A stretch of 64,000 bases of DNA from Hypomesus transpacificus (Eukaryota > Chordata > Actinopteri > Osmeriformes > Osmeridae). The stretch covers positions 1 through 64,000 of the forward strand of contig NW_025813854.1 in assembly GCF_021917145.1 (NCBI RefSeq), read 5' to 3'. A program made the position numbers and the translations under genes. The notes beneath the pieces were generated by a model. It was not told the DNA's origin. It saw nothing but the letters and a program-made list of their open reading frames with translations, and searched no databases. How positions within the stretch are numbered: the first letter of the stretch is position 1; each line of letters begins with the position of its first letter. Shown one piece after another: positions 19,015 through 43,938 of this stretch.

Positions 19015-19608
19015 AGAGAGGAAGACTGCGAGGAGGATGAGGATGAACAAGTGTGGGTGAATCCTCTGAACTAATAGGGACATGGGTTGAGGAGCAGCGG
19101 GATCGGAGTGTCGTCCCTCTATGGCCTGTTGTGACCGGAGAACCTAGAGATCTCCTGAAACCCTGGAAACTGTGATACTCTCACCAGCATGGAGGTGGAA
19201 CTGGCCCTTAAGCTGACTAGCCCAGAACAACCAACTGTCCTTCACTGGATAAGTCCCTTTTATTTAACTGGGATTTGTGGAGCCGTGTGGCTAATTGATT
19301 GGAAGCCTTCCAACCAAGAACTGCTGATGCTGCGTTGTACCTAGCTGTGAGAGAAGAGGAATGATATCAAAGTGTTGTTGTGTGGATTCAATTGGAGTTG
19401 GGTTCGTTCAGGGCAGTTGTTTTGAAGAAATGTGTTGTGGATAAACCAAAACAGAATCCAGCCAATCAGAAATACTGTTGTGTTGTGTCTCCTTCCCCAC
19501 TTCCCCTCTTTTAACATACCAACCTATCACCTACCAACCTACCAACAGTTGTGTGGATCCAAGAGCAGGCTTAGCTGACCTGCTGTATCTCACCTGACCC
19601 AGATCAAG

Positions 19609-19614
19609 AATAAA
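19609..19614 (+). terminator. polyadenylation signal of lrrc24
   Basis: AATAAA about 595 bases downstream of the stop codon, in CAAGAATAAAAACGC. Confidence 0.6.
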
Positions 19615-19649
19615 AACGCACAAAACTTACTGACATTGTCTAGAATCTG

Positions 19650-21314: not shown

Positions 21315-21697
21315 ATGGAAGTCAGAAGACATAGAGCAGGCCTCAAAACGGATTGCATAAGTGAGAGGGAGGTGAAGCTGGAAGGAAAGAGCGCGACGGT
21401 GATGATATCGATGGAGAACATTGAGATGAAGCTGTTTGCCTTTGATCCTCCGTCACAAGTGGGACCACTGCAGGAATCCCAGTTTAATGACCCGGACCCG
21501 AGCCCAGGCCCTGAAGAGGTAAGAACCACATTCAACCTCATGCTATACATTGTTAGTATTGACGAGGCAAGGTATAACTTCATAGTTTCTCATTGGTTTG
21601 TGATCATGTAAAAAAAAAACCTTGCTAGATACTCTGACAAGGTGAACTAAAATAACATGTTTTCAAGCATTTAAATTTAGCTTCAAGTTCCAGGTTT

Positions 21698-21894
21698 CAT
21701 TACATTACATTTAGTCATTTAGCAGACGCTCTTATCCAGAGCGACTTACAGTAAGTACAGGGACATTCTCCCCGAGGCAAGTAGGGTGAAGTGCCTTGCC
21801 CAAGGACACAAGTCATGTGCACCGGCCGGGAATCGAACAGCCAACCTTCAGATTACTAGCCCATAGCTCTAACCGCTCAGCCACCTGACTCCCT
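21698..21894 (-). mobile_element. tRNA-derived SINE, copy 4, in an intron
   Basis: Reverse copy of the same SINE: CATTTAGTCATTTAGCAGAC tail, GTGCCTTGCCCAAGGACACA central domain, GGCCGGGAATCGAAC B-box complement and CGCTCAGCCACCTGACTCCC head. It lies in intron 1 of the HECT-like gene. Confidence 0.92.
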
Positions 21895-24800
21895 GGTGGC
21901 CTGGTTGCTTGGAATTCTTTGATCCGGCTCCTCTTGACAGTTTCCAAGTGGCCTGTTTAAACTTATAATAAATAAACAAGCTTATAATAAAGAAGTCCTA
22001 ATGCTATATAAGACATTAGTACTGACTTCACTCGTGTGTGTCTCTCTCTCACAGCCTTACCTTGAACACCCCCTGGTGCCTCTAAATGAGATTGTGACAG
22101 AGCCTGTTGAAAAACAAAATCCCAGGAACACTACAGAATCTCCATCACCTACTAGGATGGTGAACAAGGGACCACAGCCTCCTGTGATGAAGATGGAGAA
22201 CGTGGAGATAGAGATGGAGATGTTTCCGTATACAAGGATGACTGAGGAGGACCTGGCGGACAGATGGTCTAACGCCTCTTCGGTAAAGTTCACAGAAAGA
22301 AACACCCATGTGGCGAATCAGCTAGAATCTGCATTTGTTTAGTCTTCCTTATGAAACAAGTTGGAGGCCTGATGTCTTCCACTTAGTACATGAGAGGAAG
22401 GAGTGAAGGTCTCCACACTTTGTTTTGTTGGGGGTGGGAGAAGGTGAGGGTTGTTTCAACCCTTACTGCTGTGTTAGAATACCTGCGCTGGATGTTGAAG
22501 TCATACAAAGTCAGTTTGACCCTCCTCTCCATCCAGACCCCCGTGACGCCCGCCCCCGAGGCCCCCCACAGCTCACCCACCAAGCTGAAGTGGAGGAGGC
22601 CGGTGCCGGAGAAGAGGGGTCTGGTGGTGAAGGATGTCGTCTGTCTGCCCAGCGGGCACCCTCGGGGCCATGAGCTCAGTCACAGCGTGCCGTGGGGCAG
22701 GGAGAGGGCAGAGCTGGAAGCCCTAGGCCTCGTTACCAGGATGTCCATCGACGAATCCTGGAGTGCCCATGAGATGGAGAGTCGTCTGGCTTCTCTATTC
22801 AAGAGACGGTTCTCCAGCAAACAAGGGCAGGCGGTCTCTTTTACCTACCTCAAGGTAGTTAATATCACATTCAGACAAATGTTATGTGAAAGCCGACTTG
22901 GCTCTTAACTATAGACTTACTTTCGTGTGTGTGTGTGTGTGTGTGTGCGCGCGCCAGTGTCTGCAGGGCTCTCGGGTGTTATTTATCCCTGACTTACCGC
23001 CTCAGTTGGATTGGACCGGGAAGCAAGTGCTGAAGATCACAGGACATGGACCCCTCTATGTCCTCTGTCACCATGATTACACTGAGGTAAACACGCTAGC
23101 TCTCTCTAGAAATAACCCTGAATGGAAATGGACAAAGGAGGAAATGGGCTTAAGTTACTCTGGTTGCATTGCTCTTTGGTTTGTTTGTGGTGCACTCTAC
23201 TATTCCATTGTGTGATTTTGATTGAAAGCATCTGTCAGCTTATTTATTTTGTCTTGTTTTGTATAGACAAAAAGTGACTGTGTGGCTGACTGTGATCAAG
23301 CTTTGAAACGGTACGCCTTTTTAATCTGAGAATTGGTTGCTAAACATTGTTCCGAGAAAATTATTAAGAAATTCCACAACCCACATGACCGGTTATGTTG
23401 AGTACACTCGGCACGGCTCATCCACATTCTTTTCTCAATGTCTCATTCAGACAGGAGTTATGTTGGGATGCCAATAAAGATGGTATACATGACGTTAACC
23501 CTCGGGATGAAATTAGGGTAGAATCCCGTTTATCTACCCCCACTGTTGAAGAAGTAAGTTTTCAAATTAATAAGAAATGAATGCTCTAGAGTTATGTACA
23601 GTGCAACGTCATTTTCTTTGGGGGTGAGTAGAGGCAGGTAGTGGTGAGAAACACCAGTCTTCTCGCCTATGAAGTACTGGTAGTCTTTCCAGGAGACTTT
23701 GGAAGTAGATGCCGTCCTCAGACTGTTCAGGGAACAGAACATGACTCCAGATGTCCAGACCCATTTTCATGTGCCGAGGTCGGCAATCCTCAGCAGTGCC
23801 TTCGCAGCCTTGAAGAATCCCTCCTTCAGCTTCAGGACGACTCCCATTCTCCACTTTGTCGGAGATGATGACCAAGGGCACGAGGGGTCGCTTGGAGAGT
23901 TCTTTAGGTACCCGTTTCCCTGCCAACTTTCTAGGTAACTAGCTTTAATTGACAAAATTACCCAATTATCCCTTCGGGGTCTCTTTGTGCCACCGCTTCT
24001 GCCTGCAGACTGGCACTGCTGGAGGTGCAGGAGAGCTCGCTATTGGAGGGCCAGCCAGGCCATCTGTTGATGACCTATGACCTGGTCGCCTTGGAAGAAA
24101 GGCGCTACTTTGCTGCTGGAGCACTGGTGGGCTGGTCGCTGTGCCATGGAGGACCAGGCCTTCGCTGCCTTCACCCGGCCCTCTACCAGCTCATGTGTGG
24201 CCACAACCCCTCATTGGAGGACTTTGACTGGAGGGAGGTGGCGGATGCAGACATTCAGGTCCAACTGCAACAGGTACTTCAGACTTTTCACATACTTGGG
24301 AAAAAGTACTTTTGCAGTAACTAATTCTTGCAGGATTAGTAGTTTGTGCAACAGTACTCTGGTCAACATTTGACCTTTTCTGCAGTTCAACTGTATCCAT
24401 GGTATAGAATACAGTATGTGTGCAGTATGAAACTAACTGAACCTCAAACTGTTACACCCATTCCTTCTACTTTCTCTGTGGTGGTGCTGGTGGATGCCCT
24501 GCAGCTACGGACTTGTGGCTCCATCCAGAAGCTCAGCCCCAGGCTGTGTGAGTGGGTGGCAGACTGTGGCCTCCCAGAGTTCTACACAGCCCACACCAGA
24601 GAGCTTCCCTCCATCTATGCTTGTGTGGTCGAACACTACATCTACCACAGGTAAGATACTTAACCTAAAGTACTCAGAACTGGGACCAAATAGATCCATC
24701 TAAAAACCTAATTGAATAATGCAGTGTTAGCCTGCAGTGCCAAAATAATAGACAGGTGAATCTCAAGTTTCAAGGTATAGGTTTATCATGCTAAACAACC

Positions 24801-25224
24801 ATCAATCTGCTTTTATTGTGAAAACTTCTGATCCTCTCCCCAGGTTGAATAGCATGATCTCACAGTTTACAGAGGGTGTGAACAGCTGCGGTGGTCTATG
24901 GGATATCATGAAAGCTCACTCTGCGGCCTTCCTGCCTGTCATGACAAACACCCCAGAGCCTGGGTCTCACTCGAGATGTTCCAGGTCTCCTTGACTCTCC
25001 CAGAATCTGATCTGACAGCATCTGAGAGCCCCATCACCTGTTGGGGAACAGTCCTTACGATTGGTGGGAGGCTTTCTGTCCTGTTTGAATTGATCAGTTC
25101 ACTTGGTTTCATGTTTTTACTAATGATGTGCAGAGCCAGCATGCAATGGCAGTACAGTACCCACAGGGACAGTGCAAACAGTACTATGACAAAACAGGTT
25201 TAATGTTGTCTATCAACAACTTAC

Positions 25225-25428
25225 CCCTTGTGCTGCCTTCGGGTCACAATGACCCGAAGGTTCACAACGAGCAGCATTTTCTTTTAACCTTCGCGCTGTG
25301 GAGGTTCTGAGAAAGTGTGACGGTTAAAAGAAAATGCTTCACTTTATTGTGTATTGGGTAAAGTTGACGCAACAGGACGGTGGGTCACAATGACTGAAGA
25401 GTCACAATGACCCGAAAGTAACACAGGG
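25225..25428. mobile_element. MITE-like element with terminal and internal inverted repeats
   Basis: The left end reads CCCTTGTGCTGCCTTCGGGT and the reverse complement of the right end reads CCCTGTGTTACTTTCGGGT, an imperfect terminal inverted repeat starting CCC. An internal perfect 16-bp inverted repeat (GCATTTTCTTTTAACC at 25274-25289, complement at 25322-25337) can form a hairpin. There is no open frame. CCC ends suggest a piggyBac-like origin, but the flanks (TTAC and ATCA) are not a clean TTAA duplication. It lies in the last intron of the HECT-like gene. Confidence 0.65.
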
Positions 25429-25739
25429 ATCAATTAAAACTCAACAAAAAAACACCAGAACGGAGACTAACTCATCTTGTTGCCACTTCAAACAAAGAAC
25501 CAGACCACCTTTTCCTTTGAGGACCTCCTTGCCGTCATCACAGGAGCAGATCATGTTCCTCCATTGGGCTTATCAAGGGACCTCATTCACCCATTCTATA
25601 GCCAGGACCCACACACGATCAGTGTGCATCTGCCCTACACCAGCACCATAGAGCAGCACATTCTATGGAGAATAGCCACTCTGCCTGCCCTTAAGGACCT
25701 ATTGATGAAGGCTGTAAGGCCCCTTACAAGGCTGTAAAC

Positions 25740-26750
25740 GAGTCTCGAGGCTCTGGACAAATTCTGATCAGCTACACTTTTAACACACTTTGAAATGGTG
25801 GTGGACCCAACATAACTCTATAAGTTTCTTGTGCACCAATCACATTCTCAAATGACAGTGGCTCTTCAAAAGTGTCAGTGTGAGTTATTTTAGGACATCA
25901 TATGACGACAACCTTGTTTCGTAACTTTAAATTTGATGCATTGTATGTTGTAACAATGTCAGCCCATGGGGTATATTATCAAATTCATATTTCAAAATAA
26001 TTTCATACTTCAATGTATTTGTATTTTTAAAACTAAGACTGAATTAAAACATTATTTTTTAATATATTGCATGGCTTAATGCTAATTTGCTTAAAATAGA
26101 ACAACAGATTTAACAAGACAGTATTTTCATTGAGTAATATTCTTCATAATATGTCAAAAGCACACTCAAAAGAAACAGTACATTGCATATGACACGTTCA
26201 GCTGAGATTTAGCTTTCACATGACAGGTAAATGACCTGTGTACGTTCACGGTCCAATAGTCTTCTGGATTCTTCTCACTGTGACTTTGATGGGCGTTTTA
26301 AGATTATTCAACAAAAGCTGAAAAAAGTTTTACATGAATCTTTTGTCTGTCGTTATGGCAATTCACTAATTTTTATACATTTTTGTCAATTCCAGCAATT
26401 TCTTAAATTGAATTTGTGGCTACACATATTCACGTACTCACCTGTTCTATTAGAGTTGTGAGAGTTTCGTTTGTCAGCTGACCAATGGAGGTTATCTTGA
26501 TTTGTGCGTGTACCAGTGTAGTCAAGTCTAAGGGAGTCACATTAGAAAAAAGAAATGTTACTATCCAAGCACAGTTATCAAAGAAGAACTAGTATGTGCA
26601 TGTTTCACAAAGGGAGAACTATGGGAGGAGGACTGGTTTATAAAAAAATATAATTAACATCCTAACCTTACATAGGTATGTATATACTGTAGTTGCCAAA
26701 GCAACACAATATGTCAATATTCAAATACCTTTGCATACTGTAAGTATACA
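25740..26750. other. intergenic between convergent genes, no gene seen
   Basis: AT-rich sequence between the end of the HECT-like gene and the 3' end of the minus-strand mucin-like gene. No membrane-segment exon or further SEA exon of the mucin was recognised on the minus strand. Confidence 0.4.
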
Positions 26751-26752
26751 TT

Positions 26753-26758
26753 TTTATT
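26753..26758 (-). terminator. possible polyadenylation signal of the mucin-like gene
   Basis: AATAAA on the minus strand overlapping the proposed stop codon (26757-26759). The overlap is unusual, so either the true end is further left or the gene continues through the alternative donor at 26803. Confidence 0.3.
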
Positions 26759-29700
26759 AAGATCGTATTGCATTTGTAAAATAAATTTTAAAACATTGCC
26801 TACTTTGAAAAGGTGTTGTAGTTGTTGGGAAAGTTGTTAAGGATGTAGTTGTTGGAACAGCGGTTGGAGCAGCGGTTGGAGCAGCTGTTGGAACAGCGGT
26901 TGGAGCAGCGGTTGGAGCAGCTGTTGGAACAGCGGTTGGAGCAGCTGTTGGAGCTGATGTTGGAGCTGCTGTTGTAAAAGAACAATTACATAATTATTAT
27001 TGGTAATTATTTTTAATTATCCCGGTCAAAAGCAATACCAAATCCATTTTTATATCTTTGCATTGCGATGAACAACAAAATCATTGGAACCACTATCTTA
27101 ACCATTCATTAAAGTGGGTGGGACATGTATACTGAAACCTTCGCTTTATTAATACTTACGAGCACTGACACTGCCTGGAATAATGTTTAGGGAGGTGGAG
27201 TTATTGGTGAGAGCTGTATTCAGAGTTGATTCCACTTCGTTTGCAGAGGGAACTGAAGACGCATTCTGGAACACGAGTGTCATATCAGCAACTACGGATC
27301 CACTCCTATATGGGACAAGAAAATGGGCTGGAATAATCTCAGAGGTTCATTAACTTCAAACCTTACAGTAACATATGATGAATGATGGACATGATTCCTT
27401 ACCTGAATCTGTTGATGATGGCACGGAGAAACCTTGAAAATTTTTTCTTGTAAATGTTGTTTATCTGCATACAGACACACATATGGTAAACACAGTGGAT
27501 ACAAATGTAACATTTCATCAGTATTTCAGACTGCAAGTAGTCTTAAAGTTGCAACTTTTCATTATTTCAGAAAGAATGAATGTTACATTAAAATTAGTGC
27601 GGTCAAACGATTAAAATGTTTAATCGCGATTAATCGCATTAATGTCATAGTTAACTCGCGATTAATCACAATTAATCGCACATTTTTATCTACTCTAAAT
27701 GTCCCTTGATTTCTTTTTGTCCCATTCTTTTTTCAAATTGTAATGCTCTTATCAACATGGAAAAGTGGTTCGGATTGCTTCGTGCAAATATTTTTTGTTA
27801 TTGAAAACAACATTGCAATCGCCTGGCTTTGACGAGGGGGCGGAGAATTCGCATCATCTGTGTGCTTGGCCATCAAGTGGTATTTCAGACTGGACGTGCT
27901 GCGATGATAGCTCAGTTTACAACGACAAAACACACAGATCACTTTGGTCTTGTCAATGGAACCATTTGGCAACTTTTTAAAAGTAAACTTTCCATTCAGA
28001 ATCTTATTGGCATCCATTTCGGCGTCTCGCGCTCGCCATCAACTCAAAACGTAACGTTAACCTACTACCAGAGAATGTCTCATATCCGTAAACGGGCTCT
28101 GCTACTACGCTTTAGCCGGATCGCAAGCCAAACAAGTGTGTGGCGTGCCTGTTGTTTTGTTTCCGGTCTAGCTAGATCCGGTGTGGTGTTGTAGTTTTTC
28201 TAACTTCGGTAGTTGTTGCAACAGCATGTGAAAAAAAACTACAAAGTTTGCTAGGCCAAAAAGAGCGTTAATCGCGCGATAAAAAAATTGACGCCGTTAA
28301 TTTGGGTTTGCGTTAACGCCGTTAATAACGCGTTAAACTGACAGCACTAATTAAAATTGTTCCTTAGTTGTTACAGTGGGTGATCTTAACATGTCTCATG
28401 ACTCTTATATGTATATTGATGTGTGTAACAATGTTGAGTTGTACCTCAGAAATCACAGTGGCAGCAAGATTCTGGAATGCTGCAGAGGATGAATTAGACA
28501 GATCTGCATTGAAAGGCTGGTTCAGACTGAATGTTAGATCCAGACTGCCCTCACTTGACGATGGTGGGTTGGTTGAAGCAGTTGTTGGAGCTGCAGTTGG
28601 GGCTGCTGTTGGAGCGGCTGTTGGAGCGGCTGTTGGAGCAGCTGTTGGAGCAGCTGTTGGAGCAGCTGTTGGGGCAGCTGTTGGAGCAGCTGTTGGAGCT
28701 GCTGTTGGAGCAGCAGTTGTGGGTGTAGTTGTTGGGGAAGTTGTTAAGGCTGTAGTTGTTGGAGTAACTGTTGTGGATGTAGTTGTCGTTGTTGGAGCAG
28801 CTGTTGTGGATGTAGTTGTTGGAGTAGTCGTTGGAGTTGTTGGAGTAACTGTTGTGGGTGTAGTTGTTGGAGCAGCTGTTGTAGTTGTTGGAGTAACTGT
28901 TGTGGGTGTAGATGTTGGAGCAGCTGTTGTGGATGTAGTTGTTGGGAAAGTTGTTAGGGGTGTAGTTGTTGGACTACCTGTTGTGGTTGTAGTTGTTGGT
29001 GCAGCAGTTGTGGGTTTAGTTGTTGGGGAAGTTGTTAAGGGTGTAGTTGTTGGAGTAACTGTTGTGGATGTAGTTGTAGTTGTTGGAGCATCTGTTGTAG
29101 TGGTTGGAGTAACTGTTGTGGATGTAGTTGTCGGGAAAGTTGTTAGGGGTGTAGTTGTTGGAGTAACTGTTGTGGATGTAGTTGTTGGTTCAGCTGTTGT
29201 GGATGTAGTTGTTGGGGAAGTTGTTACGGGTGTAGTTATTGAAGCAGCTGTTGTGGGTTTAGTTGTTGGGGAAGTTGTTAAGGCTGTAGTTGTTGGAGTA
29301 ACTGTTGTGGATGTAGTTGTCGTTGATGAAGCAGCTGTTGTGGATGTAGTTGTTGGAGCAGCTGTTGTAGCTGTTGGAGTAACTGTTGTGGATGTAGTTG
29401 TTGGAGCATCTGTTGTAGTTGTTGGATTTACTGTTGTGGATGTAGTTGTTGGGAAAGTTGTTAGGGATGTAGTTGTTGGAGCAACTGTTGTGGATGTAGT
29501 GGGGGAAGTTGTTAAGGGTGTAGTTGTTAGAGCAGCTGTTACAGGTGTAGTTGTTGGAGCAGCTGTTGTGGATGTAGTTGTTGGGGAAATCTTTAAGGGT
29601 GTAGTTGTTGGAGCAGCTGTCACAGGTGTAGTTGTTGGATCAGCTGTTGTGGATGTAGTTGTAGTTGTCGGAGCATCTGTTGTAGTGGTTGGAGTAACTG

Positions 29701-32700
29701 TTGTGGATGTAGTTGTTGGGAAAGTTGTTAGGGGTGTAGTTGTTGGAGTAACTGTTGTGGATGTAGTTGTTGGTTCAGCTGTTGTGGATGTAGTTGTTGG
29801 GGAAGTTGTTAAGGGTGTAGTTGTTGGAGCAGCTGTTACAGGTGTAGTTGTTGGAGCAGTTGTTGTGGATGTAGTTGTTGGATCAGCTGTTGTGAATGTA
29901 GTTGTTGGGGAAGTTGTTAAGGGTGTAGTTGTTGGAGTATTTGTTGTGGGTGTAGTTGTTGGGGGAGCTGTTGTGGATGTAGTTGTGGGTGCAGCGGTTG
30001 TGGATGTAGTTGTTGTGAAAGTTGTTAAGGGTGTAGTTGTTGGAGTAACTGTTGTGGATGTAGTTGTTGGAGCAGCTGTTGTAGTTGTTGGAGTAACTGT
30101 TGTGGGTGTAGTTGTTGGAGCAGCTGTTGTAGTTGTTGGAGTAACTGTTGTGGGTGTAGTTGTTGGATCAGCTGTTGTAGTTGTTGGAGCAGCTGTTAGA
30201 GGTGTAGTTGTTGGGAAAGTTGTTAGGGGTGTAGTTGTTGGACTAACTGTGGATGTAGTTGTTGGTGCAGCAGTTGTGGTCCTAGTTGTTGGAGCAGCTG
30301 TTAGAGGTGTAGTTGTTGGAGTATTTGTTGTGGGTGTAGTTGTTGCAGCAGCAGTTGTGGGTGTAGTTATTGGAGCAGCTGTTGTGGGTGTAGTTGTTAA
30401 GGCTGTAGTTGTTTGAGTAACTGTTGTGGATGTAGTTGTCGTTGTTGGAGCAGCTGTTGTGGATGTAGTTGTTGGAGCAGCTGTTGTAGTTGTTGGAGTA
30501 ATTGTTGTGGATGTAGTTGTTGGTGCAGCAGTTGTGGATGTAGTTGTTGGGGAAGTTGTTAAGGGTGTAGTTGTTGGAGCAGTTGTTACAGGTGTAGTTG
30601 TTGGAGTAACTGTTGTGGATGTAGTTGTTGGAGCATCTGTTGTAGTTGTTGGGGCTTCTGCTGTAGTTGCAAAAAAGTTTGTTGAATAAAAATACATCAT
30701 TGTATGGATTAAATAGCCAACTTGAAAACGACAGTGACATCTAAATGTTGGGATACATGTTGTCAATAATTTGATTCAAACTGAATATCTGACAGAATAG
30801 GTGTGCATATAGCCACAACAAATATTGTGATTGATTAACTAAATGGGACAAACTAAACTAAATAAAATTATTAGCAGGCCTAATTATTACACAGGCTAAT
30901 GATGCTATTCAGATTGTAGAACTTTCCATCTCATTGTTGAATCCCACACATAGGGAATACAATAATTATAGTATTTAATTGTATTAGAGCAATTAAATAA
31001 TATAGATAAAGCTTTTTCCATCGCCGCTCCCTCCCTTTGGAACTTACTCCCCAAACCCATCAGAGACTGCACCAACCTGTTAACTTTAATATCACTAGTC
31101 AAAACACACCTTTTTAGATCTGTTTTTAATGTGTAATTAATGCTGTGATTTTAAATGAAGTACTTGTTTTATATTTATTTTAACCATGTACAGTGACTTT
31201 GAGTACTTTGAAAAGCGCTAAATAAATAAAATGTATTATTATTATTATAACATGGTCTGGGTGAATACTCGATTCTGATTCGCTGCGCGTCGGACGGTTC
31301 ACGCCTCTGTATCGTCCATTAGGCCGTCACACTTGACTTATTTTCTCAGAAAAAAGCGCCTTTTGAGCGCCTTTTGAGCGCCTTTTCAGAAAAGCGCTGG
31401 GTGACGTCAAGCACCTTTCTGACGAGAATTCTCTAACCTGAACGGGAATCATACATTCTAGCGATACATTATTATCCGTTATTTTCCGTTGGTTACTTAT
31501 TGACAGCTAGCTACTATGGCGAATACAATGCAATTTCTTGCTTTAGCTTTGGCGTTTGAGGAGCCATAGCCTGGTAACTAAGGCAGAAGGTTACTAGGGA
31601 AGGTACACACGTATCCTACTCTCCTCATCCTGATTGGTCAGCTATCAGAAAGGCACTTGACATAACCCAGCGCTTTTTTGAATTTTATAGTAGCCTACTA
31701 TTTGCTACATTCTTCGATAGCCAAACAAATGTTCTGGTGCACGTAATTCTGCCAAGCTATTGCATTTTGTACTTCTGTCAATCAATTTTATATTTCTTGT
31801 TAGTTAGCCTATTGCATCCAATCAGCGCTAAAGTGTAGTACCTACCCTTTCCGCTCAGAGTTAATGTAATGTGCTTTTGAGTTAATGTAATGTCGTTTTC
31901 CATTTGGGGGAGCGTGTTTTTGTATTGGGGGGAGGTGAACAAGTCATCCGATTTGGGGGGAGTTGACTCGTATTCGGGGGGAGTGTTTTCATTTGGGGAA
32001 TGTCCTCATATTAGGGGGTGTGTTTTGCACTTCAGGGCCACCATAATTATACCTTACTTAAAAACAAGTCCTTGAAGGACTTGTTGTTAACGTGGATTAG
32101 TGATAGGCTCCAATATATTTGATTAGATAATTGAGTATCCATTTGAAAACCATTTAGAAATGCATTACATGCAAATAATACATCATTTAAGACATAGGAT
32201 TTATAAAAATAAATTGTACATAGTCCTTACTTGTTGTTCCTGTGGTTGTTGGGGCTTCAGTTGTAATTGTTGGAGCTGCTGTTGTGGTTGTTGGAGCTGC
32301 TGTTGTGGTTGTTGGAGATGCTGTTGTGGTTGTTGGAGCTGCTGTTGTGGTTGTTGGAGATGCTGTTGTGGTTGTTGGGGCTTCAGTTGTAGTTGTTGGA
32401 GCTGCTGTTGTGGTTGTTGGGGCTTCAGGTGTAGTTGATGGAGCTGCTGTTGTGGTTGTTGGAGATGCTGTTGTGGTTGTTGGGGCTTCAGTTGTAGTTG
32501 TTGGAGCTGCTGTTGTGGTTGTTGGGGCTTCAGTTGTAGTTGTTGGAGCAGCTGTTGTGGTTGTTGGAGATGCTGTTGTGGTTGTTGGGGCTGCTGTTGT
32601 GGTTGTTGGGGCTTCAGTTGTAGTTGTTGGGGCTTCAGTTGTAGTTGTTGGAGATGCTGTTGTGGTTGTTGGGGCTTCAGTTGTAGTTGTTGGAGCTGCT

Positions 32701-35700
32701 GTTGTGGTTGTTGGGGCTTCAGGTGTAGTTGTTGGAGCTGCTGTTGTGGTTGTTGGAGATGCTGTTGTGGTTGTTGGGGCTTCAGTTGTAGTTGTTGGAG
32801 CTGCTGTTGTGGTTGTTGGGGCTTCAGTTGTAGTTGTTGGAGCAGCTGTTGTGGTTGTTGGAGCTTCAGTTGTAGTTGTTGGAGCTGCTGTTGTGGTTGT
32901 TGGGGCTTCAGTTGTAGTTGTTGGGGCTTCAGTTGTAGTTGTTGGAGCAGCTGTTGTGGTTCCAATATATTTGATTAGATAATTGAATATCCATTTGAAA
33001 ACTATTTAGAAATGCATTACATGCAAATAATACATCATTTAAGACATAGGATTTATAAAAATAAATTGTACATAGTCCTTACTTGTTGTTCCTGTGGTTG
33101 TTGGGGCTTCAGTTGTAATTGTTGGAGCTGCTGTTGTGGTTGTTGGAGCTGCTGTTGTGGTTGTTGGAGATGCTGTTGTGGTTGTTGGAGATGCTGTTGT
33201 GGTTGTTGGGGCTGCTGTTGTGGTTGTTGGGGCTTCAGTTGTAGTTGTTGGAGCTGCTGTTGTGGTTGTTGGAGATGCTGTTGTGGTTGTTGGGGCTTCA
33301 GTTGTAGTTGTTGGAGCTGCTGTTGTGGTTGTTGGGGCTTCAGGTGTAGTTGTTGGAGCTGCTGTTGTGGTTGTTGGAGATGCTGTTGTGGTTGTTGGGG
33401 CTTCAGTTGTAGTTGTTGGAGCTGCTGTTGTGGTTGTTGGGGCTTCAGTTGTAGTTGTTGGAGCAGCTGTTGTGGTTGTTGGAGCTTCAGTTGTAGTTGT
33501 TGGAGCTGCTGTTGTGGTTGTTGGGGCTTCAGTTGTAGTTGTTGGGGCTTCAGTTGTAGTTGTTGGAGCTGCAGTTGTGGTTGTTGGGGCTGCAGTTGTA
33601 GTTGTTATAGCAGCTGTTGTGGTTGTTGGAGCTTCAGTTGTAGTTGTTGGAGCAGCTGTTGTGGTTGTTGGGGCTTCAGTTGTAGTTGTTGGAGCAGCTG
33701 TTGTGGTTGTTGGGGCTTCAGTTGTAGTTGTTGGAGCATCTGTTGTGGTTGTTGGGGCTTCAGTTGTAGTTGTTGGGGCTTCAGCTGTAGTTGTTAGAGC
33801 AGCTGTTGTGGTTGTTGGAGCTGCTGTTGTGGTTGTTGGGGCTTCAGTTGTAGTTGTTGGGGCTGCTGTTGTGGTTGTTGGGGCTTCAGTTGTAGTTGTT
33901 GGGGCTTCAGTTGTAGTTGTTGGAGCAGCTGTTGTGGTTGTTGGGGCTTCAGTTGTAGTTGTTGGAGCTGCTGTTGTGGTTGTTGGGGCTTCAGTTGTAG
34001 TTGTTGGAGCAGCTGTTGTGGTTGTTGGAGCTTCAGTTGTAGTTGTTGGAGCTGCTGTTGTGGTTGTTGGGGCTTCAGTTGTAGTTGTTGGGGCTTCAGT
34101 TGTAGTTGTTGGAGCTGCTGTTGTGGTTGTTGGGGCTTCAGTTGTAGTTGTTGGGGCTGCTGTTGTGGTTGTTGGGGCTTCAGTTGTAGTTGTTGGAGCT
34201 GCTGTTGTGGTTGTTGGAGATGCTGTTGTGGTTGTTGGGGCTTCAGTTGTAGTTGTTGGAGCTGCTGTTGTGGTTGTTGGGGCTTCAGGTGTAGTTGATG
34301 GAGCTGCTGTTGTGGTTGTTGGAGATGCTGTTGTGGTTGTTGGGGCTTCAGTTGTAGTTGTTGGAGCTGCTGTTGTGGTTGTTGGGGCTTCAGTTGTAGT
34401 TGTTGGAGCTGCTGTTGTGGTTGTTGGAGATGCTGTTGTGGTTGTTGGGGCTTCAGTTGTAGTTGTTGGAGCTGCTGTTGTGGTTGTTGGGGCTTCAGTT
34501 GTAGTTGTTGGAGCAGCTGTTGTGGTTGTTGGAGCTTCAGTTGTAGTTGTTGGAGCTGCTGTTGTGGTTGTTGGGGCTTCAGTTGTAGTTGTTGGGGCTT
34601 CAGTTGTAGTTGTTGGAGCAGCTGTTGTGGTTCCAATATATGGTTGAGTTTAGAGCTGCTGTTGTGGTTGTTGGGGCTTAAGTTGTTGGGGAAGTTGTTG
34701 GAGCAGCTGTTGTGGTTCCAATATATTTGATTAGATAATTGAATATCCATTTGAAAACCATTTAGAAATGCATTACATGCAAATAATACATCATTTAAGA
34801 CATAGGATTTATAAAAATAAATTGTACATAGTCCTTACTTGTTGTTCCTGTGGTTGTTGGGGCTTCAGTTGTAATTGTTGGAGCTGCTGTTGTGGTTGTT
34901 GGAGCTGCTGTTGTGGTTGTTGGAGATGCTGTTGTGGTTGTTGGAGATGCTGTTGTGGTTGTTGGGGCTGCTGTTGTGGTTGTTGGGGCTTCAGTTGTAG
35001 TTGTTGGAGCTGCTGTTGTGGTTGTTGGAGATGCTGTTGTGGTTGTTGGGGCTTCAGTTGTAGTTGTTGGAGCTGCTGTTGTGGTTGTTGGGGCTTCAGG
35101 TGTAGTTGTTGGAGCTGCTGTTGTGGTTGTTGGAGATGCTGTTGTGGTTGTTGGGGCTTCAGTTGTAGTTGTTGGAGCTGCTGTTGTGGTTGTTGGGGCT
35201 TCAGTTGTAGTTGTTGGAGCAGCTGTTGTGGTTGTTGGAGCTTCAGTTGTAGTTGTTGGAGCTGCTGTTGTGGTTGTTGGGGCTTCAGTTGTAGTTGTTG
35301 GGGCTTCAGTTGTAGTTGTTGGAGCTGCAGTTGTGGTTGTTGGGGCTGCAGTTGTAGTTGTTATAGCAGCTGTTGTGGTTGTTGGAGCTTCAGTTGTAGT
35401 TGTTGGAGCAGCTGTTGTGGTTGTTGGGGCTTCAGTTGTAGTTGTTGGAGCAGCTGTTGTGGTTGTTGGGGCTTCAGTTGTAGTTGTTGGAGCATCTGTT
35501 GTGGTTGTTGGGGCTTCAGTTGTAGTTGTTGGGGCTTCAGCTGTAGTTGTTAGAGCAGCTGTTGTGGTTGTTGGAGCTGCTGTTGTGGTTGTTGGGGCTT
35601 CAGTTGTAGTTGTTGGGGCTGCTGTTGTGGTTGTTGGGGCTTCAGTTGTAGTTGTTGGGGCTTCAGTTGTAGTTGTTGGAGCAGCTGTTGTGGTTGTTGG

Positions 35701-36727
35701 GGCTTCAGTTGTAGTTGTTGGAGCTGCTGTTGTGGTTGTTGGGGCTTCAGTTGTAGTTGTTGGAGCAGCTGTTGTGGTTGTTGGAGCTTCAGTTGTAGTT
35801 GTTGGAGCTGCTGTTGTGGTTGTTGGGGCTTCAGTTGTAGTTGTTGGGGCTTCAGTTGTAGTTGTTGGAGCTGCTGTTGTGGTTGTTGGGGCTTCAGTTG
35901 TAGTTGTTGGGGCTGCTGTTGTGGTTGTTGGGGCTTCAGTTGTAGTTGTTGGGGCTTCAGTTGTAGTTGTTAGAGCAGCTGTTGTGGTTGTTGGAGCTTC
36001 AGTTGTAGTTTCTGGAGCTGCTGTTGTGGTTGTTTGGGCTTCAGTTGTAGTAGTTGGGGCTTCAGTTGTAGTTGTTGGAGCAGCTGTTGTGGTTGTTGGA
36101 ACTTCTGCTGTAGTTACAAATAGAAGTTTGTTGAATTTCAAATACATCACGGTATGGATTAAATACCCAACTTGAAAACGACAGTGACATCTGAATGTTG
36201 GGATACATGTGCAAACTTATTAAATCAAAATCAATAATCCTACAGACATATATAGTCAATAATTCAATTCAAACATAATCTTTCTCACAGAATAAGTGTT
36301 CATATGGCCACAACAAATATTGTGATTGATAAACTAAATTGAACAAACCAAACGAAATAAAATAATTAGCAGGCCTTTATTACATTATTATTACATAAGC
36401 TAATGATGATAGTCAGATTTCAGAATTTACCATCTCATTGTTGCATCCCACAAATGGGAATACTACTGTGTATCATCAGACTAAATACAAATACAATATA
36501 AATACAACAATACACAATAATTGATGGGCTCCAATATATTTGATTAGATACATTTTATATCCATTTGAAAACTTTTTAGAAATACATTACATGCAAATAA
36601 TAGATTATTTAAGACATAGGATTTACAACAATATAGTAAATAGTAGATAGTCCTTACTGGTTGTTCCTGTAACACACATGCAGAAAGCGCCTGCTAAACA
36701 TATCAAAATAAGTTTGTTTTTAATCAT
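26757..36727 (-). CDS. secreted Thr/Pro-rich mucin-like protein with SEA domain, about 2,077 residues
   Basis: Eight exons in transcription order: 36727-36658, 36107-34839, 34621-33083, 32950-32231, 30660-28445, 27464-27403, 27305-27160, 26968-26757. Every junction is GT/AG and every phase agrees. Exon 1 is a signal peptide (MIKNKLILICLAGAFCMCV, then TGTT). Exons 2-4 are each a multiple of 3 and phase 1-1, coding near-perfect 7-residue repeats (PTTTTEA / PTTTTAA). Exon 5 codes irregular PTTTSTTAA / PTTTPLTTF repeats, a (PTAA)n run and the first half of a SEA domain. Exons 6-7 complete it (IYKKKFSRFLRAIINRF, then RSGSVVADMTLVF). Exon 8 is PTAAPTAV repeats. Long Thr/Ser/Pro tracts are heavily O-glycosylated in mucins; SEA domains usually cleave at G/SVVV-type sites. 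No membrane helix or cytoplasmic tail is seen; exon 8 either ends at 26757 or splices at 26803. The promoter is not identifiable. Confidence 0.8.
27595..28349 (-). mobile_element. non-autonomous hAT-type DNA transposon with 8-bp target duplication
   Basis: The ends are inverted: TAGTGCGGTCAAACG at the left, and TAGTGCTGTCAGTTTAACG on the complement of the right end. The element is flanked by a perfect 8-bp direct repeat ATTAAAAT (27587-27594 and 28350-28357), the hAT signature. Subterminal regions are rich in ATTAATCGC repeats. It carries a BED-finger fragment but no transposase catalytic core at 755 bp. It sits in intron 5 of the mucin-like gene, between the two halves of the SEA domain. Confidence 0.88.
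27733..28017 (-). pseudogene. BED zinc-finger remnant of a hAT transposase
   Basis: 94-residue open frame inside the hAT element. It reads VICVFCRCKLSYH...LKYHLMAKH, a Cys-x2-Cys...His-x4-His BED finger, the N-terminal DNA-binding domain of hAT transposases. The catalytic dimerisation region is absent, so this is a deletion derivative or the first exon of a truncated copy. Confidence 0.75.
28560..30660. repeat. irregular PTS-coding minisatellite (exon 5 of the mucin-like gene)
   Basis: On the plus strand the motif is GTAGTTGTTGGAGTAACTGT with variants, mostly 24-27 bp periods. The 28560-28720 end is a GCAGCTGTTGGA 12-mer array coding Pro-Thr-Ala-Ala on the minus strand. Both strands are open for about 700-800 codons because the repeat lacks stop triplets; only the minus frame joins a signal peptide and SEA exons. 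Confidence 0.92.
31008..31250 (+). mobile_element. 3' end of a 5'-truncated LINE
   Basis: A 43-codon frame ends at TAA 31134-31136 and reads KAFSIAAPSLWNLLPKPIRD then LVKTHLFRSVFNV, the C-terminal end of non-LTR reverse transcriptase proteins of the L2/CR1/Rex type common in fish. A short 3' UTR ends in AAAGCGCTAAATAAATAAAA and a TTA/TAT repeat tail. It lies in intron 4 of the mucin-like gene, antisense to it. Confidence 0.8.
31388..31680. mobile_element. fold-back / MITE-like inverted repeat
   Basis: The left arm at 31388-31426 contains AAAAGCGCTGGGTGACGTCA and continues AGCACCTTTCTGA. The complement of the right arm (31641-31680) reads AAAAGCGCTGGGTTATGTCA then AGTGCCTTTCTGA, so nearly 40 bases are inverted with few mismatches. 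About 215 unique bases lie between. No open frame is present. Triplicated GCGCCTTTTGA just to the left may be part of the element. Confidence 0.65.
32231..36107. repeat. 21-bp minisatellite in exons 2-4 of the mucin-like gene, with duplicated introns
   Basis: Unit on the plus strand: GTTGTTGGGGCTTCAGTTGTA, alternating with GTTGTTGGAGCTGCTGTTGTG. The array is broken by near-identical intron segments at about 32155-32230, 33007-33082 and 34763-34838 (ATGCATTACATGCAAATAAT). A related diverged segment is near 36580-36657. Exon-intron units have therefore been copied as blocks. Confidence 0.95.
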
Positions 36728-38401
36728 TATGGTTTAATAATAGTCCTTATCCTATGCCGTAATAATAATGTAATCCAAAATTGCTTGTAGTTTGGGTTAC
36801 TGGCTTCAACTCCTAGACTGCGCAGGTGAATAGGACACTTGATTATACACCAACCTGTCATGCCTATAAGAAGGGTAAAAACCAGTCATACCGGTTGTAA
36901 GTCTACTGCCGATAACTGATCAACAAAGATGGTTGTGAAACAGGTTTCCTTGGATAAGCAACCAATTCCAATTCCGTCCACTGCAAAGGACGTATAGCCC
37001 CTATACGTCCACTGTAGGTTAGTGCATGACATGTGCACCAGCAAATACTATTTCAAAATAAATTCCTGCATTAAAATAATGTATCATGAGTTTGTATGAT
37101 TTGGTCATGTATTATCACACTAGCATTTAATTATCACGTCAAACAATTACACTGCACTAAACTGTAAGTGTAAATGTAAAGTGAAAATAACAAAACCAGT
37201 CAGTATGATGACTTGAGCGAATATCATTCATTCACGTCTTACTAAAACAGCGGCCACGCGAAAGGGAATAAGGAAACTGTTTCCTCTACTAAAAAATACA
37301 ATGCAGGTCACGTGAAAAAAGGATCCAAAGACTCGTAGAAAGACCGAGTCGGGGAAGGAACTAATCATTCGTTTCCTCTAGCTACAGAGCCTATGCAGGT
37401 CACGTGAAAAATGATCCAAAGACTCGTAGAAAGACCGAGTCGGGAAAGGAACGAATTATTCGTTTCCTCTTGCTACAGCCTATACAGGTCACGTGAAAAA
37501 TGATCCAAAGACTCGTAGAAAGACCGAGTCGGGAAAGGAACGAATCGTTCGTTTCCTCTAGCTACAGAGCCTATGCAGGTCACGTGAAAAATGATCCAAA
37601 GACTCGTAGAAAGACCGAGTCGGGAAATGAACGAATCACTCGTTGAGAGGACTCGTTACTCCCGAGTCCTTATAAGGATTCGTTCAAAATGAACGAATCG
37701 TTCACGAACGACACATCACTAGCAGCTCCGGGAGAGCATCATCAGCCAGTGGCAACTAATATTGCGTGGCTTCAGATGGAGTATTGTCAATCCTATGCAT
37801 ACTATTCACGGTTTATTATTTAAATCCACTTATTTAAGTTTAGGATGGTTGACACAATGTTGCTGGTAGTGGAATGTTTTCTCCAACACTGACCAGTAAA
37901 CGGAAGTTCCCACTGCTGATTTATTTGAGAGAGGGGGAAGGCTAGAATGTAACACACGCTGTATCGCTAGCTAACGTGTTTGCTACCAACTCCACACCGA
38001 TTAATGGCGAACCCCGTTTGTAACTTTTATACAACTTATTTTGATTTGCACCTGTGGGGCTAAAGCATTTAGTTGAACTAGCTGGAAGTCGGATAGTAAG
38101 TCCCTGTCGCCAATTTGTTTTTGTGCAGCAGCTTGCTAGCTACAAAAAAAAACACAGAAAATGTTAGCTACTGTACGTTACAATAGCAAACTGTCTAGGA
38201 ATTTGTCTAGCTAGCTGACTGTTCACCAATAGCAAGTATGATCTGTATGTAACATTGCTATACAACTTCGAAGGTTCTAAACTGTTTCCCCTGTATTTGC
38301 AGGATGACGTTCACATGATGAGCTTGCTAGTTAGCTTAACGTTAACTACTAGCTAGACTATTAGCTACATACGACGACAACAAGAACAACAACAATTGAC
38401 A
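36728..38401. other. intergenic between divergent mucin-like gene and ttc14
   Basis: Must contain the promoters of both genes. It includes a short perfect hairpin at 36988-37010, a 91-bp tandem repeat with palindromic end sequence, and an AT-rich upstream region of ttc14 with several TAGCTAG/GCTAGC words. No coding exon is seen. Whether ttc14 has a separate UTR exon is not resolved. Confidence 0.45.
37280..37721. repeat. 91-bp tandem repeat (about 4 copies) with palindromic transposon-like end
   Basis: CAGGTCACGTGAAAAATGAT recurs at 37304, 37396, 37485 and 37576, followed in each copy by CCAAAGACTCGTAGAAAGAC and GAGTCGGG. The array ends in TTCGTTCAAAATGAACGAA and CGTTCACGAACG palindromes and ACATCACTAG. 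The arrangement resembles one end of a DNA transposon with subterminal repeats; the matching left end is not found. Confidence 0.8.
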
Positions 38402-41400
38402 ATGGATAGAGATTTATTGAGGCAATCGTTGGTCTATCACGGACAGTCCCTGTACGCCCATCTATCATGTGAACAGAGTGAAAATCCAGACTTCAAAGAT
38501 GTTGCCCCAGACTTATCTAAATTCAGCTATGAAAGGTAAGCAACTTGGCTCGGTACCGCACATGTTAATCATGGCAACGACGTCACAGAATCATCTCATC
38601 CAAACAATATAGTAAATGTTACTTTTAACAGATATAGTTTAATACATCTAGGATTCCGTTACAAGAGTGAAGCTGTGTTACAGTCCTCAAATGACCATTA
38701 GTGTGTGGCTGTCTCTTCTAGGAAAGATGGAGGAGTGGGCAGTCACATGGTGGAGCAGTTCATTGCTAGGAAAGCGGACATTCTGTTTGAACCTTCTTGG
38801 AGGTCTGCTGTACCGGTTGAGGTGGAGCTGGATGAGGAGGCTGAAGGTAAGCCTTTCATGTCCTGTCAAGTTCAAGCGGGAGAAAAGGAGAGCGAGTGAG
38901 TGCCCGCGATGTGTGTGTGTGTGTGTATGTAACATTCAGCCAAAATATATTTGTAAATGAATGCTATGGTGCCTGAAGACAATACTGTGTGCAGAGCCCT
39001 ACGCTATCATGCCCCCCTTGGAACTCTTCATGGAGGTGTCCTACGAGGACAGGAGGAACATGTTCTACAGGGACGTCGAGAGAGGGGACGCCGTCATCGG
39101 AAGGATCAACAACATCCGAGACTTTGGTTTCTTCCTCACGCTCATCTGCATGGGCGGAGGGCTGGAGAGAGACATCGAAGACCTGGAGCTCTCGGTAACG
39201 ACTGCCGCCCGTCTGCACGTTTATTTTTATTTTTACACAATGCCTCGGGCGCCGATCGACGGTGAAGCCCGTGCTGTTGAAATGCACTTTGGGAAAGTGT
39301 TCTTGCGGACCCGGCCTTCGTTAGTCGGTCTGCTTTTGAGTGTCAGGGGTATTGCGCTGTGCTCTAACTCTCTCCCCCTCCGCAGGCACTGTGCCCTACA
39401 AGAGATGTACCTTCGAACGGAAACCATGACGACCCACTGTCTTACTACCAGATTGGAGATCTGATCAGAGGTGAATGCTAATTGCCTGAGCAATAGGGGA
39501 AGTTACTGGGCATGCCAGTGGATTACCTGGGGGGAAAAAGTGATGTTTTGGGTTGTGAATGTCAACTACTTGTTCCTCTGGGGAGTCAAAGTGGTGGGGG
39601 GAGGGAGTGTCTGGCCTGGTCCTTCTGGATGGAACATTCCCTCCAGGGGTTGGAAGGGGGGAGTCAGGTGGCTGAGCGGTGAGGGAATCGGGCTAGTAAT
39701 TTGATTCCCGGCTGTGCCATATGACGTTGTGTCCTTGGGCAAGGCACTTCACCCTACTTGCCTCGGGGGGGAATGTCCCTGTACTTACTGTAAGTCGCTC
39801 TGGATAAGAGCGTCTGCTAAATGACTAAATGTAAAATGTAAAAGTAAGACTCTCCATCCAGGGATTGGAAGACTCTATCAAGGGATTGGAAGACTCTATC
39901 AAGGGGTTGAAATGACTGGAGAGTTCTGTCCACACGGTTCCGTCCATCTGACCCCTGTGACCTCTGCTGCCCCCTAGCTGGAGTGAAAGACATAGACCGC
40001 TACCACGAGAAGGTCACCATTTCTCTCCAGCCCTCCTCCCTCTCTTGCAGTCTGTCCAGACTGAAGCTGGGAGTCATCAGTAAGGACGACCTCCCTCTGC
40101 ACTACACGTAAGAAGCCGTTCGCTTGTGGGGGGGGGACAGAATTGGATTCTTAGAAGGGCCTGGGGGCAGGGCTCGCAACTAGCTTTTTCCCTCTCTGTC
40201 CCAGTACCGTCCCGACGTGCAAAATGAACCGTCCCAAACTGAACTTGACCTGTCCCAAAATGTACATTCTTGTGTTTTGGCGAAGGGAGTGGGGGTGAAA
40301 CCTGTTTTAAACCCCCCCAGCTGTGCAGTGCTCATGGTGGTGTGTGTGTGTGTGTGACCCCTCTCCCCAGACGCAGTCTGCGCGTGGCCAACGACAGCAC
40401 AGAGACCTACGAGAGGGTGATGAGGAGCTCTCTGGGGTACTCCAACCCGTCCATCGTCCAGTTCCTCCTGGGGAAGGTTGGGGTCAGTGATACCCGGCCT
40501 CCGTCAGTAATGAGGGGTTTACAGAGGTAAGGAGTGAGAGAGAAAACGCTAGAACATCTCATGAACAGGTTCTCCTGCACCACATACAGCCATTAATGAC
40601 CAATCTGACTGCTAAATTATTTCTTTTTTAACTGTAAGTTCAATGTCTGCACTTTGCACCTCATATGCATAATAACAAATAGTCTCCATGCTGCTATTCT
40701 CAGCACTTTGCACTTTTCTTTAATATGTTGTTTTTGTCGTATATGTTGTTTTTTAACCTGTTGACATCTGTTTGCATGAGTATGTGAAATGTTATAATGC
40801 TGTTTTACTTGCACATTTGGAGTATGGGGAAACGCAATTTTGATTATCTGCGTAACTACTTGTTGAATGGTCTTTTTCAATAAAATTCACTTTGAGTTTG
40901 ACTTTGAGAGGGAGAACATCTTAGTTTTTCTTGTATTTATATGAAGTAGGAACAAAGAAGCTATTGTCATTGTATCTTTTTAAATAACTTTCTATTTTCA
41001 AGCAAACATTTCCTGGAAGAGGACTTTGCCATCTCTCTCAGAAAGACACAATCTGCCTCGTGGGCCCTGAAATGGTATGTGGGACAAGTGCCAACCTTTG
41101 AGAGGGAAAAAAAAACAAACCTGTAAATCATGCCTTCTCTGAACCCAAACTAACCCTCACCGGGCTCTGCATCCACGCGTGCTAGTTAGTAGTTTGGACC
41201 CTGTGTTGCACTGGAGACACGTTTTCAGTGTGTCCATCTCTTGTGTTTCAGTGTGAGGTCCGGTGTGGACCATTTCAAACACAACCGCCACGTAGAAGCT
41301 ATGAATGAGTACAATAAAGCCCTGGAGATCGACACCAACAACACGGAGGCTCTTGTTGCCCGGGGAGCTCTGTAAGTGTGACACGTGAGAAGTCAAACAT

Positions 41401-43938
41401 GCCAAGCTTCTTCCCCGCAGTCCTTAGTGACCCGGTTGGTCTGGCATTTGATTACAGAAGAGGAAAAAGTAAACATCATTCCACAGGTATGCCAACAAGG
41501 GCAGCCTTGTGAAGGCCATCGGCGACTTTGAGCTGGCGTTGGAGAGTTGCCCCACTCACAGGAACGCCAAAAAGTATCTATGTCAGACTCTGGTGGAGCG
41601 CGGAGGGCAGTGAGTGCACTTCCTCGCATCGATACATTCCTGCATCGTAACCAGTAGCGATTTCGATGAGCCGTGCCATTGTTTACGATTGATGGTGACG
41701 ATAACTGTAGCCGTGGTACTAGTCGAACCGCATTGTGTAGGTTGCTTAACTCCACGTTTAATCCAACCACGTGACTGTGAGTCAGGCTGGAGGAGCAGGA
41801 GAAGCTGGTGACTGCCGAGGGTCTGTACCGGAGAGCCCTGGGGCTGGACAGCACCTTCCCTGACGCCCAGGAGGCCATGACCAAGATCCAGCTGCTCATC
41901 CAGGTGAGCTGGGCCCAACACACACACCTCACCTACCCTCTCACCTGGCCCAGAGAGAACACACCTCACCTACCCTCTCACCTGGGCCAGAGAACACACA
42001 CCTCACCTGACCCAGAAAGTACACACCTCACCTACCCTCTCACCTGGGCCAGAGAATAGACTGCACTACTACTAACGGTCTCCCATCCTGCCACCCCAAG
42101 TGCTGTAAAACCCTCTGGAAGGGACTTACCATGTCACAGAGATATGCCGAGTGTTGCTCACCTTTTGACCTCCAGTGCTAACCAGTGTGCAGTGCTGAGG
42201 TATTGTGTAATACTGATGAGGTGCTTCCTTCTGTTTGTGTCCCCGTGACCTGGGCCCCCCACCCTGACCGCCTGGCTGCTTCACTCGTCGCCTGTCTCTC
42301 TGGGGAAAACAACCAATAAACAACCCAACAACCGCCTTCTAACTCTGATGGTTGGTGTCCTGTACCTGGTCTGCAAACGGTAAACTCCAAAACCCCTCTT
42401 TTTAATCCCTTCAAACTGGGGAAATGTAAACTGCTATGTGCTGTGTCCTGGGCCTGTCACTTTGATCGGTAAATTCCTGCCGCTGTCTGTGTTTTCACAA
42501 ACCTTACCCGTGTGTGTGTGAACTTTTTCGACCTCTGCTCCTTCACACTTCCGTCGCGTTCTCAAACGAATGGATGGACCTCTTGTTTGGGGTTTGTGCA
42601 CACCCGGCTGTCTGTGTGCGCTTGAACCGCGGGGGTGCAATTGTACTCTGTTGATTGGCTGCGTTAAAGAAATCGATGAAACTGAGAGAAGAGGCGGCCG
42701 CCAAGGAGCTGGAGGAGGTTAAGAACACCACGGAGAGCAGCGCCCAGAAATTGCGTAAGATCTTGAAAGAAGAGAAAAGGTAAATCCACTGTGCCATGGT
42801 AACCAAAGGTAACCCCAATACCGTCTAGTCAGGTACTCACACACATACATGTTTGTATTTTTTTTGTATTGGCTTTTTATTTTCTTATTTCGAAGAAGTC
42901 TTGAGTTCTGAGCGTTCACTCTTGAAGACAGCCTGGAGGTTTAGTTCTGTTTCTGTCGTTACGCACTCTCCTAGGATGAAAAAGAAACGGAAGCGGTCGA
43001 GTTCGTCCTCAACGTCCTCCAGCAGCTCTGCCCGCTCCTCGTCCTCTTCCTCCGGACACAGGAAGTCCAAGAAACGGAAGAGGAAGCGCAGGCGCTCGTC
43101 CCACGGGAGCAGACGCCAGCGCAGGCTCTCCTCCCGCGACGACAAGCGGAGTCCGGACGAGGAGAGGGGGAGGGAGGAGGAGGACGAGGAGGAGGAGTGG
43201 TACCCTGCCCCAGCCAACACCTCTGCCTCCTTCCTCGGTCGGGGGGCCGGGGGCGCGGCCGGGGGGGAGTACACGGGGGCAGACGTGACAGAGTGGGACA
43301 GGGAGTCCTACAGCCAGAAACAGGCCCCACGCTCCCTGTCCACCTCCCCTCAGCGCTCAGACTCCCCAGGCTCCTCCCCCCGGGCGGCAGACAGACAGAG
43401 GGATGGAGCAGAGGTGGAGGAGCGGCCCAGCGGGAGCGGCCGGCCAGGAGGAGGAGGAGGAGGAGGAGGGAGCAGCAGGTGGGAGAGGAGCAAGGAGAGA
43501 AACGGGAGCGAGAAGGAGGCCTCCAGGGTCCTGCACAGCCCCAGACACAGGAAGCTGTCCTTGACCTCCTCGGTGGGGTCCGAATACTCCCGCAAGTCTG
43601 ACCTCCCGTCCCAGAGCCAGACTTTGTCCAGACGATCCGACGGCTCGAACCAGGACAGTTTCGCTTCCCGGAGATCAGAGGGCTGGAAGAAGAAGAGTGA
43701 TCTCTCCAGGAGATCGGATAGCGGCAGGCACGAGGTTGGAGCCAGGTCGAGCAAGAAGGAGGATGTCAGAGCAGCTCGGATATCGGAGGGAGATAAGCAG
43801 TTTCCCTCCAACACTTCGCGTAATGGCCAGGGCTCCTCTGATGGAAGTGATAAGAAAGCCCTTCCTGCTAATCTGCTCGACATCTTCAGCCAGATAGCCC
43901 AGTTTGAGAAGGAGAAAGGTGGCAAGCCAAAAAAATAA
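38402..43938 (+). CDS. ttc14: TTC14, tetratricopeptide repeat protein 14
   Basis: Twelve exons: 38402-38535, 38722-38846, 38995-39194, 39386-39470, 39978-40107, 40371-40526, 41003-41074, 41252-41371, 41487-41609, 41786-41903, 42670-42779, 42975-43938. All phases match, giving about 778 residues (human is about 770). The start [10 protein letters not shown] is the family N-terminus. An S1-like RNA-binding fold follows ([50 protein letters not shown]), then TPRs ([50 protein letters not shown]). The C-terminus is a long basic Ser/Arg/Lys-rich tail ([18 protein letters not shown]) ending [18 protein letters not shown], characteristic of TTC14. S1, TPR and RS-like regions suggest a nuclear RNA-associated role; the precise function is not established. 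Confidence 0.96.
39660..39842 (+). mobile_element. tRNA-derived SINE, copy 5, in a ttc14 intron
   Basis: GAGTCAGGTGGCTGAGCGGT head, with a deletion around the anticodon region, then TTGATTCCCGGC, TGTCCTTGGGCAAGGCACTT, TCGCTCTGGATAAGAGCGTC and an AAATGTAAAATGTA tail. Same family as the other five copies. Confidence 0.92.
39846..39918. repeat. 23-bp tandem repeat, three copies
   Basis: AAGACTCTATCAAGGGATTGG and close variants repeat three times just after the SINE tail in the same ttc14 intron. Confidence 0.8.
40600..40915 (+). mobile_element. possible retroposon 3' tail in a ttc14 intron
   Basis: An AT-rich block with CAATAAAATTCACTTTGAG followed by TTTGACTTTGAG micro-repeats looks like a LINE 3' UTR and its terminal repeat. 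No coding part is present, and the assignment rests only on the end structure. Confidence 0.35.
41917..42058. repeat. short tandem repeat in a ttc14 intron
   Basis: About four imperfect copies of ACACACCTCACCTACCCTCT followed by CACCTGGGCCAGAGA, starting right after the donor of exon 10 (41903). Confidence 0.85.

Follow-up and report, generated by a model that had tools for sequence, protein, structure and literature searches.

The stretch analyzed here, the first 64,000 nucleotides of contig NW_025813854.1 of the fish Hypomesus transpacificus (the window), carries on its minus strand a predicted mucin gene at 36.7-26.2 kb. The locus raises the question whether the product is held at the cell surface or secreted. 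With moderate confidence, we read the gene as encoding a teleost mucin with a single SEA domain that is most likely secreted, has no evident anchor and ends in a short C-terminus after a second repeat tract. Judged from its sequence, the gene is a real-looking fish mucin whose family occurs across many bony fishes, and it is possibly an anchorless variant. The alternatives weighed below overlap, and their likelihoods do not sum to one.

Gene Model and SEA Domain

The gene was modeled as eight exons on the minus strand (36727-26246). Translation of the joined exons gave 1361 codons with a single stop at the end; the phases close at the exon junctions, and no internal stop occurs. The model is minimal, as two middle repeat exons drawn in an earlier note on this DNA were omitted and two exons beyond 26757 were added. 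The predicted protein begins with a signal-peptide-like sequence, followed by 1118 residues of repeats. The SEA domain comes next, and behind it lie a short PTAA tract and 54 C-terminal residues. Splice sites are reported as ranks (top x%) or bits, which depend on the matrices used, as the hydrophobicity scores depend on the hydropathy values.

Exon 1 (36658-36727; donor top 4.7%) holds the start codon, the signal-peptide-like sequence, assessed by eye, and the only three cysteines of the model, all within the first 18 residues. Exon 2 (34839-36107) encodes PTTTTAAP/EAP repeats and is in phase 1 on both sides (acceptor top 1.9%, donor top 1.5%). The second repeat exon, exon 3 (28445-30660), also contains the first third of the SEA domain (about 28552-28445), while exon 4 (27403-27464) provides its middle part. 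Exon 5 (27160-27305; acceptor top 0.4%), which shares its first codon with exon 4, encodes the last part including the cleavage-type motif, and exon 6 (26804-26968; phase 1 on both sides, donor top 6.6%) adds PTAA/PTAV repeats. Exons 7 (26442-26527; donor top 0.02%, acceptor top 13%) and 8 (26246-26317; acceptor top 9.3%) are tentative; they encode the first part and the end of the C-terminal module, with a TGA stop at 26246. The signal-peptide-like exon at 36727-36658, the Thr/Pro exons at 36107-34839 and 30660-28445 and the PTAA exon from 26968 had all been drawn in the earlier note and were recovered here.

The repeat section between signal peptide and SEA flank consists of 56% Thr, 15% Ala, 15% Pro and 4% Ser. 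The plus strand shows a strong G skew here, consistent with ACA/CCA-rich repeats; long frames are open on both strands, and those on the opposite strand overlie low-complexity repeats. Both elements of the mucin definition given in PMC1552070 are present, namely a long Pro/Thr/Ser tract, judged by composition without PTSpred, and a SEA domain. A 'strong' candidate under this definition would also have a SEA domain phylogenetically related to those of mammalian mucins.

The proposal of a mucin-like gene with a SEA domain split by introns was tested by the match to the SEA profile that the earlier note had called for, and was supported. The translation across the three SEA exons matched Pfam PF01390 at E=2.6e-16 and 60.1 bits (cut-off 26.4), and against a profile derived from the fish relatives (20 sequences) the window protein scored 152 bits; a search of NCBIfam gave no useful match. 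The domain appears to be the only one of its kind in the window: in a tblastn search with 22 relatives, none of the 60 best rows did better than E=0.15 beyond the minus-strand interval at 28.6-27.1 kb. It contains RSGSVVADMTLVF with GSVVA, a motif of the GSVVV type, and G67, S68 and V69 are invariant in the 20-row alignment of the relatives. Domains with a GSVVV or GSIVA motif cleave themselves between the second and third strands (PMC6954182).

Among sequences of solved structures, the window SEA matched best ADGRF1 (E=2.3e-4) and TMPRSS11D (E=0.0025), neither of which is a mucin, and both again came first when the 20-row alignment was used. Fold evidence was obtained from an AlphaFold2 model, made with the same alignment, of one relative (P0010) and not of the window protein (mean predicted local distance difference test score 78.9, with residues 118-146 below 50). 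The best Foldseek match of this model was 1ivz, a murine MUC16-like SEA domain (E=5.4e-5, probability 1.00), followed by TMPRSS6 (E=3.2e-4) and further MUC16 and TMPRSS SEA structures (E=0.0024-0.0052).

Relatives in Other Teleosts

A search with the sequence from the SEA domain to the C-terminus, in which scoring was limited to the 7994 candidates with the most shared words, returned 176 proteins at E<=0.001, 120 of them listed, the best at E=6.7e-64. We fetched 22 relatives (P0001-P0021 and P0045) and aligned 20 (P0001-P0020). The aligned proteins come from 18 named teleost taxa, and all have a SEA domain homologous to that of the window; the gene had been called lineage-specific, which is not the case for the SEA domain, the part on which the claim was assessed. 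The remaining listed matches are presumably matches to low-complexity repeats, judging by their Pfam labels and short coverage. Among longer proteins (about 750-2380 residues), none of 888 candidates reached E<=0.001. Since P0021 matches the window at 77-86% through intron as well as exon sequence, it probably comes from a close relative.

Like the window protein, P0001-P0020 carry the SEA sequence with a GSV cleavage-type motif; in many, a STxPPSSSEG-like segment precedes the SEA domain. They differ in domain number and at the C-terminus. While the window model has one SEA domain, nine of the 22 fetched relatives have two or three and 13 have one; several of the extra domains are partial. Furthermore, 19 of the 20 aligned proteins possess a hydrophobic stretch (mean of at least 1.89) that ends no more than seven residues from the C-terminus, in most cases behind a Ser/Pro-rich linker. 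By a simple hydropathy rule, applied without a dedicated predictor, this tail looks like a glycosylphosphatidylinositol (GPI) signal. The exception is P0012, which is named partial; P0021 and P0045, outside the alignment, also have no tail.

The identity and tree set leaves out P0021 and P0045. In it, the window SEA shares 54-61% identity with the last domains of the 20 relatives and 32-63% with their ten inner ones. The tree placed it in a group (26 rows, fork 100/99) formed by the window, all 20 last domains and five of the ten inner domains. Within this group the window SEA branches first, although the next fork (84/91) is not firm.

In the database the relatives are named integumentary mucin C.1-like, cell wall protein DAN4-like, ice-structuring glycoprotein-like and similar. 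Misleading labels among P0001-P0020 are cell wall protein and ice-structuring glycoprotein as well as nuclear pore protein, poly(A) polymerase and adhesion G protein-coupled receptor.

Gene End and Search for a Membrane Anchor

The eight-exon model has neither a membrane helix nor an EGF module nor a cytoplasmic tail after the SEA domain, as the earlier note had also found, and downstream of it only hydrophobic candidates at chance level occur. The hydrophobic GPI-like C-terminus of the relatives is likewise absent from the model. The cysteine-rich VWD and cystine-knot parts typical of gel-forming mucins are not found in a protein with three cysteines in 1361 residues.

Several observations weigh against this reading of the gene. 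The exon 3 donor is weak by the matrices (top 19.7%); its join was credited because the SEA match spans it. The acceptors of exon 7 (-0.0 bits, top 13.0%) and exon 8 are weak as well. For the 54-residue module, which by eye has a beta-alpha-beta look, relatives were sought among proteins of about 236-752 residues, and none of ten candidates reached E<=10. The best Pfam match was DUF4368 (E=0.08, below its cut-off) and the best match among solved-structure sequences had E=0.54. We rejected the module as a partial second SEA domain, as its hhalign score of 12.2 was equalled or exceeded in 22 of 200 shuffles. Finally, among 111 AGs scanned at 27130-25000, two, at 26201 and 25183, would open in-phase terminal exons that include a hydrophobic stretch, and because the relatives carry an anchor-like tail a missed anchor exon has to be considered.

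According to this alternative, which we regard as possible though rather doubtful, the protein is membrane-bound or GPI-anchored in the manner of its relatives. Its anchor exon would have been missed because it has diverged, was lost from the assembly or belongs to another splice form. The tails of the aligned relatives speak for it, as does the grouping of the window SEA with all 20 last domains, even though five inner domains fall into the same group. The search of the DNA itself was less favorable. A first scan gave no candidate. On the minus strand at 19500-27160, seven open stretches containing a hydrophobic part were then found, but none resembled the relatives' tail; the nearest (26208-26113) scored 1.81 versus 1.89-2.33 for three relatives. 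Regarding the two in-phase candidates, which would also favor this alternative, the acceptor at 26201 is poor (-5.4 bits, top 50.5%), while that at 25183 is better (0.0 bits, top 12.8%) and opens a hydrophobic stretch followed by about 60 residues. In a control, however, 54 of 58 stretches contained at least one such candidate, and 31 of 58 contained one with an acceptor no worse than that at 25183. As this is chance level, the two candidates are no evidence for an anchor, and another terminal path, through exons 7 and 8, closes in phase. Since no tail like that of the relatives was found at 19500-27160 and the candidates occur at chance level, the predicted protein is most likely secreted.

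The gene may also be larger than modeled. According to the earlier note, it had eight exons with all phases closing and about 1,900 repeat residues; the exons shared with our model do close, and 1118 repeat residues stand in the minimal model, while the remainder depends on both middle blocks (exons 3 and 4 of the note, ending at 33083 and 32231) being spliced in via weak acceptors. The blocks lie at 32231-34838 on the minus strand and consist of duplicated intron starts and repeats; across 2125 columns, 36115-33996 aligns with 34359-32241 at 94.6% identity. The donors at 33083 and 32231 are good, being copies of the exon 2 donor (top 1.5%) together with the start of the following intron. Near the block starts, the repeat-side acceptors scored -3.5 bits or less. 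A wider look found two weak in-phase acceptors, one at 33784 (-0.1 bits, top 13.5%), which scores like the accepted exon 7 acceptor, and one at 33001 (-1.4 bits, top 19.4%). However, 94 of 98 AGs in one block and 45 of 45 in the other are open and in phase; phase closure is therefore uninformative there, as nearly any AG would close. On balance, the middle blocks may be exons, though we consider this less likely than not.

A further alternative concerns the gene end, which the earlier note had placed near 26757. A TAA does exist there, with AATAAA at 26758, so that exon 6 could read through to it and exons 7 and 8 would be unreal. This end has become doubtful, as splicing at 26804 to 26527-26442 and on to 26317-26246 also closes, with an in-phase TGA and ATTAAA at 26063. 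The moderate exon 6 donor (top 6.6%) and the want of detected relatives for exons 7 and 8 agree with a read-through, but its AATAAA would lie across or right next to the stop codon, and the exon 7 donor ranks in the top 0.02% with in-phase closure. Exons like exon 7 occurred in ten of 282 overlapping stretches of the window (real exons included, thresholds set at the observed values), a frequency that lends modest support to exons 7 and 8. We consider the read-through unlikely; it overlaps with the favored reading, as the protein would be secreted regardless.

That the locus is a decaying gene, as the duplicated blocks with intron pieces and a transposon-like insert in the SEA intron could suggest, is very improbable for 1361 codons without an internal stop and a SEA domain 54-61% identical to the last one of 20 relatives.

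Repeat Duplications and Neighboring Sequences

The acceptor region of exon 3 duplicates the one before exon 2, and the sequence upstream of it matches exon 1 and intron 1 in three pieces (82-90%). From this match, exons 2 and 3 appear to derive from a duplicated intron-plus-exon unit, and by duplications of such units the repeats appear to have expanded. The 94.6% duplication at 36.1-32.2 kb may be an assembly fault.

The intron dividing the SEA domain contains a transposon-like remnant on the minus strand (27595-28349) with ATTTTAAT on both sides, which we take to be hAT-like with a BED-finger-like fragment. Just upstream of the mucin gene lies an array of 91-base units (37301-37644). Two further arrays are formed by 21 copies of a 43-base unit with 93% matches (2228-3130) and by 21-base units (CACACAGGGCCCAGAGCCACA) over 3.7 kb (54648-58376), where all three plus-strand frames are open for more than 1,200 codons. 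Near the latter, a KH-domain stretch at 59182 is presumably FXR1-like. On the plus strand, a RING-type stretch (10742-11410), under the Pfam cut-offs and presumably RNF14-like, and a leucine-rich repeat and immunoglobulin stretch (17267-19014) were observed. The plus-strand stretch at 38961-43938, which we assume to be TTC14-like, gave no Pfam match for either of two pieces searched.

Discussion

Known mucins share parts of this architecture. MUC1 has a transmembrane helix and a cytoplasmic tail, neither of which is present in the window model. Otherwise it resembles the window protein in having repeats followed by a SEA domain with a GSVVV-type motif (motif: PMC4456727). MUC16 shares the SEA fold with the window family, 1ivz being the best solved-structure match of the modeled relative, but differs in carrying 56 such domains as well as a transmembrane segment (PMC4456727). 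In chicken Muc13 the repeat tract is also split over several similar exons, but the protein has EGF domains and is membrane-bound, features that the window model does not have (PMC1552070). I-Muc of the gilthead sea bream is likewise a SEA-containing mucin of fish that lacks a clear mammalian orthologue, but compared by its description only, it differs by a transmembrane domain and a cytoplasmic tail (PMC3680472). A GPI-tailed fish SEA family was not described in the literature consulted, whose coverage was partial and is not proof of absence.

In the secreted mucin that we favor, the Thr/Pro/Ala repeats would be densely O-glycosylated, and the SEA domain would fold and probably cut itself at G-S in RSGSVVAD, its halves presumably staying together as in MUC1. 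Unlike gel-forming mucins, the cysteine-free mature chain would not polymerize by disulfides. As it also has no evident anchor, the protein is most likely a secreted mucus component without disulfide polymerization. In the relatives, the SEA domain probably lies beside a GPI anchor, and shedding at this domain could occur.

A tentative account of the difference, which we regard as less likely than not, is a switch within the lineage, from a probably GPI-anchored surface SEA mucin to a secreted one. In place of the anchor exon there would now be a repeat exon together with a new C-terminal module of 54 residues, and the repeats would have grown by intron-plus-exon duplication. The possible switch to secretion would make it possible to test how mucins convert from one form to the other, surface-bound or secreted. 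Recognizing that the relatives form a single family of SEA mucins, probably GPI-anchored, would correct misleading names, such as that of a yeast-type cell wall protein.

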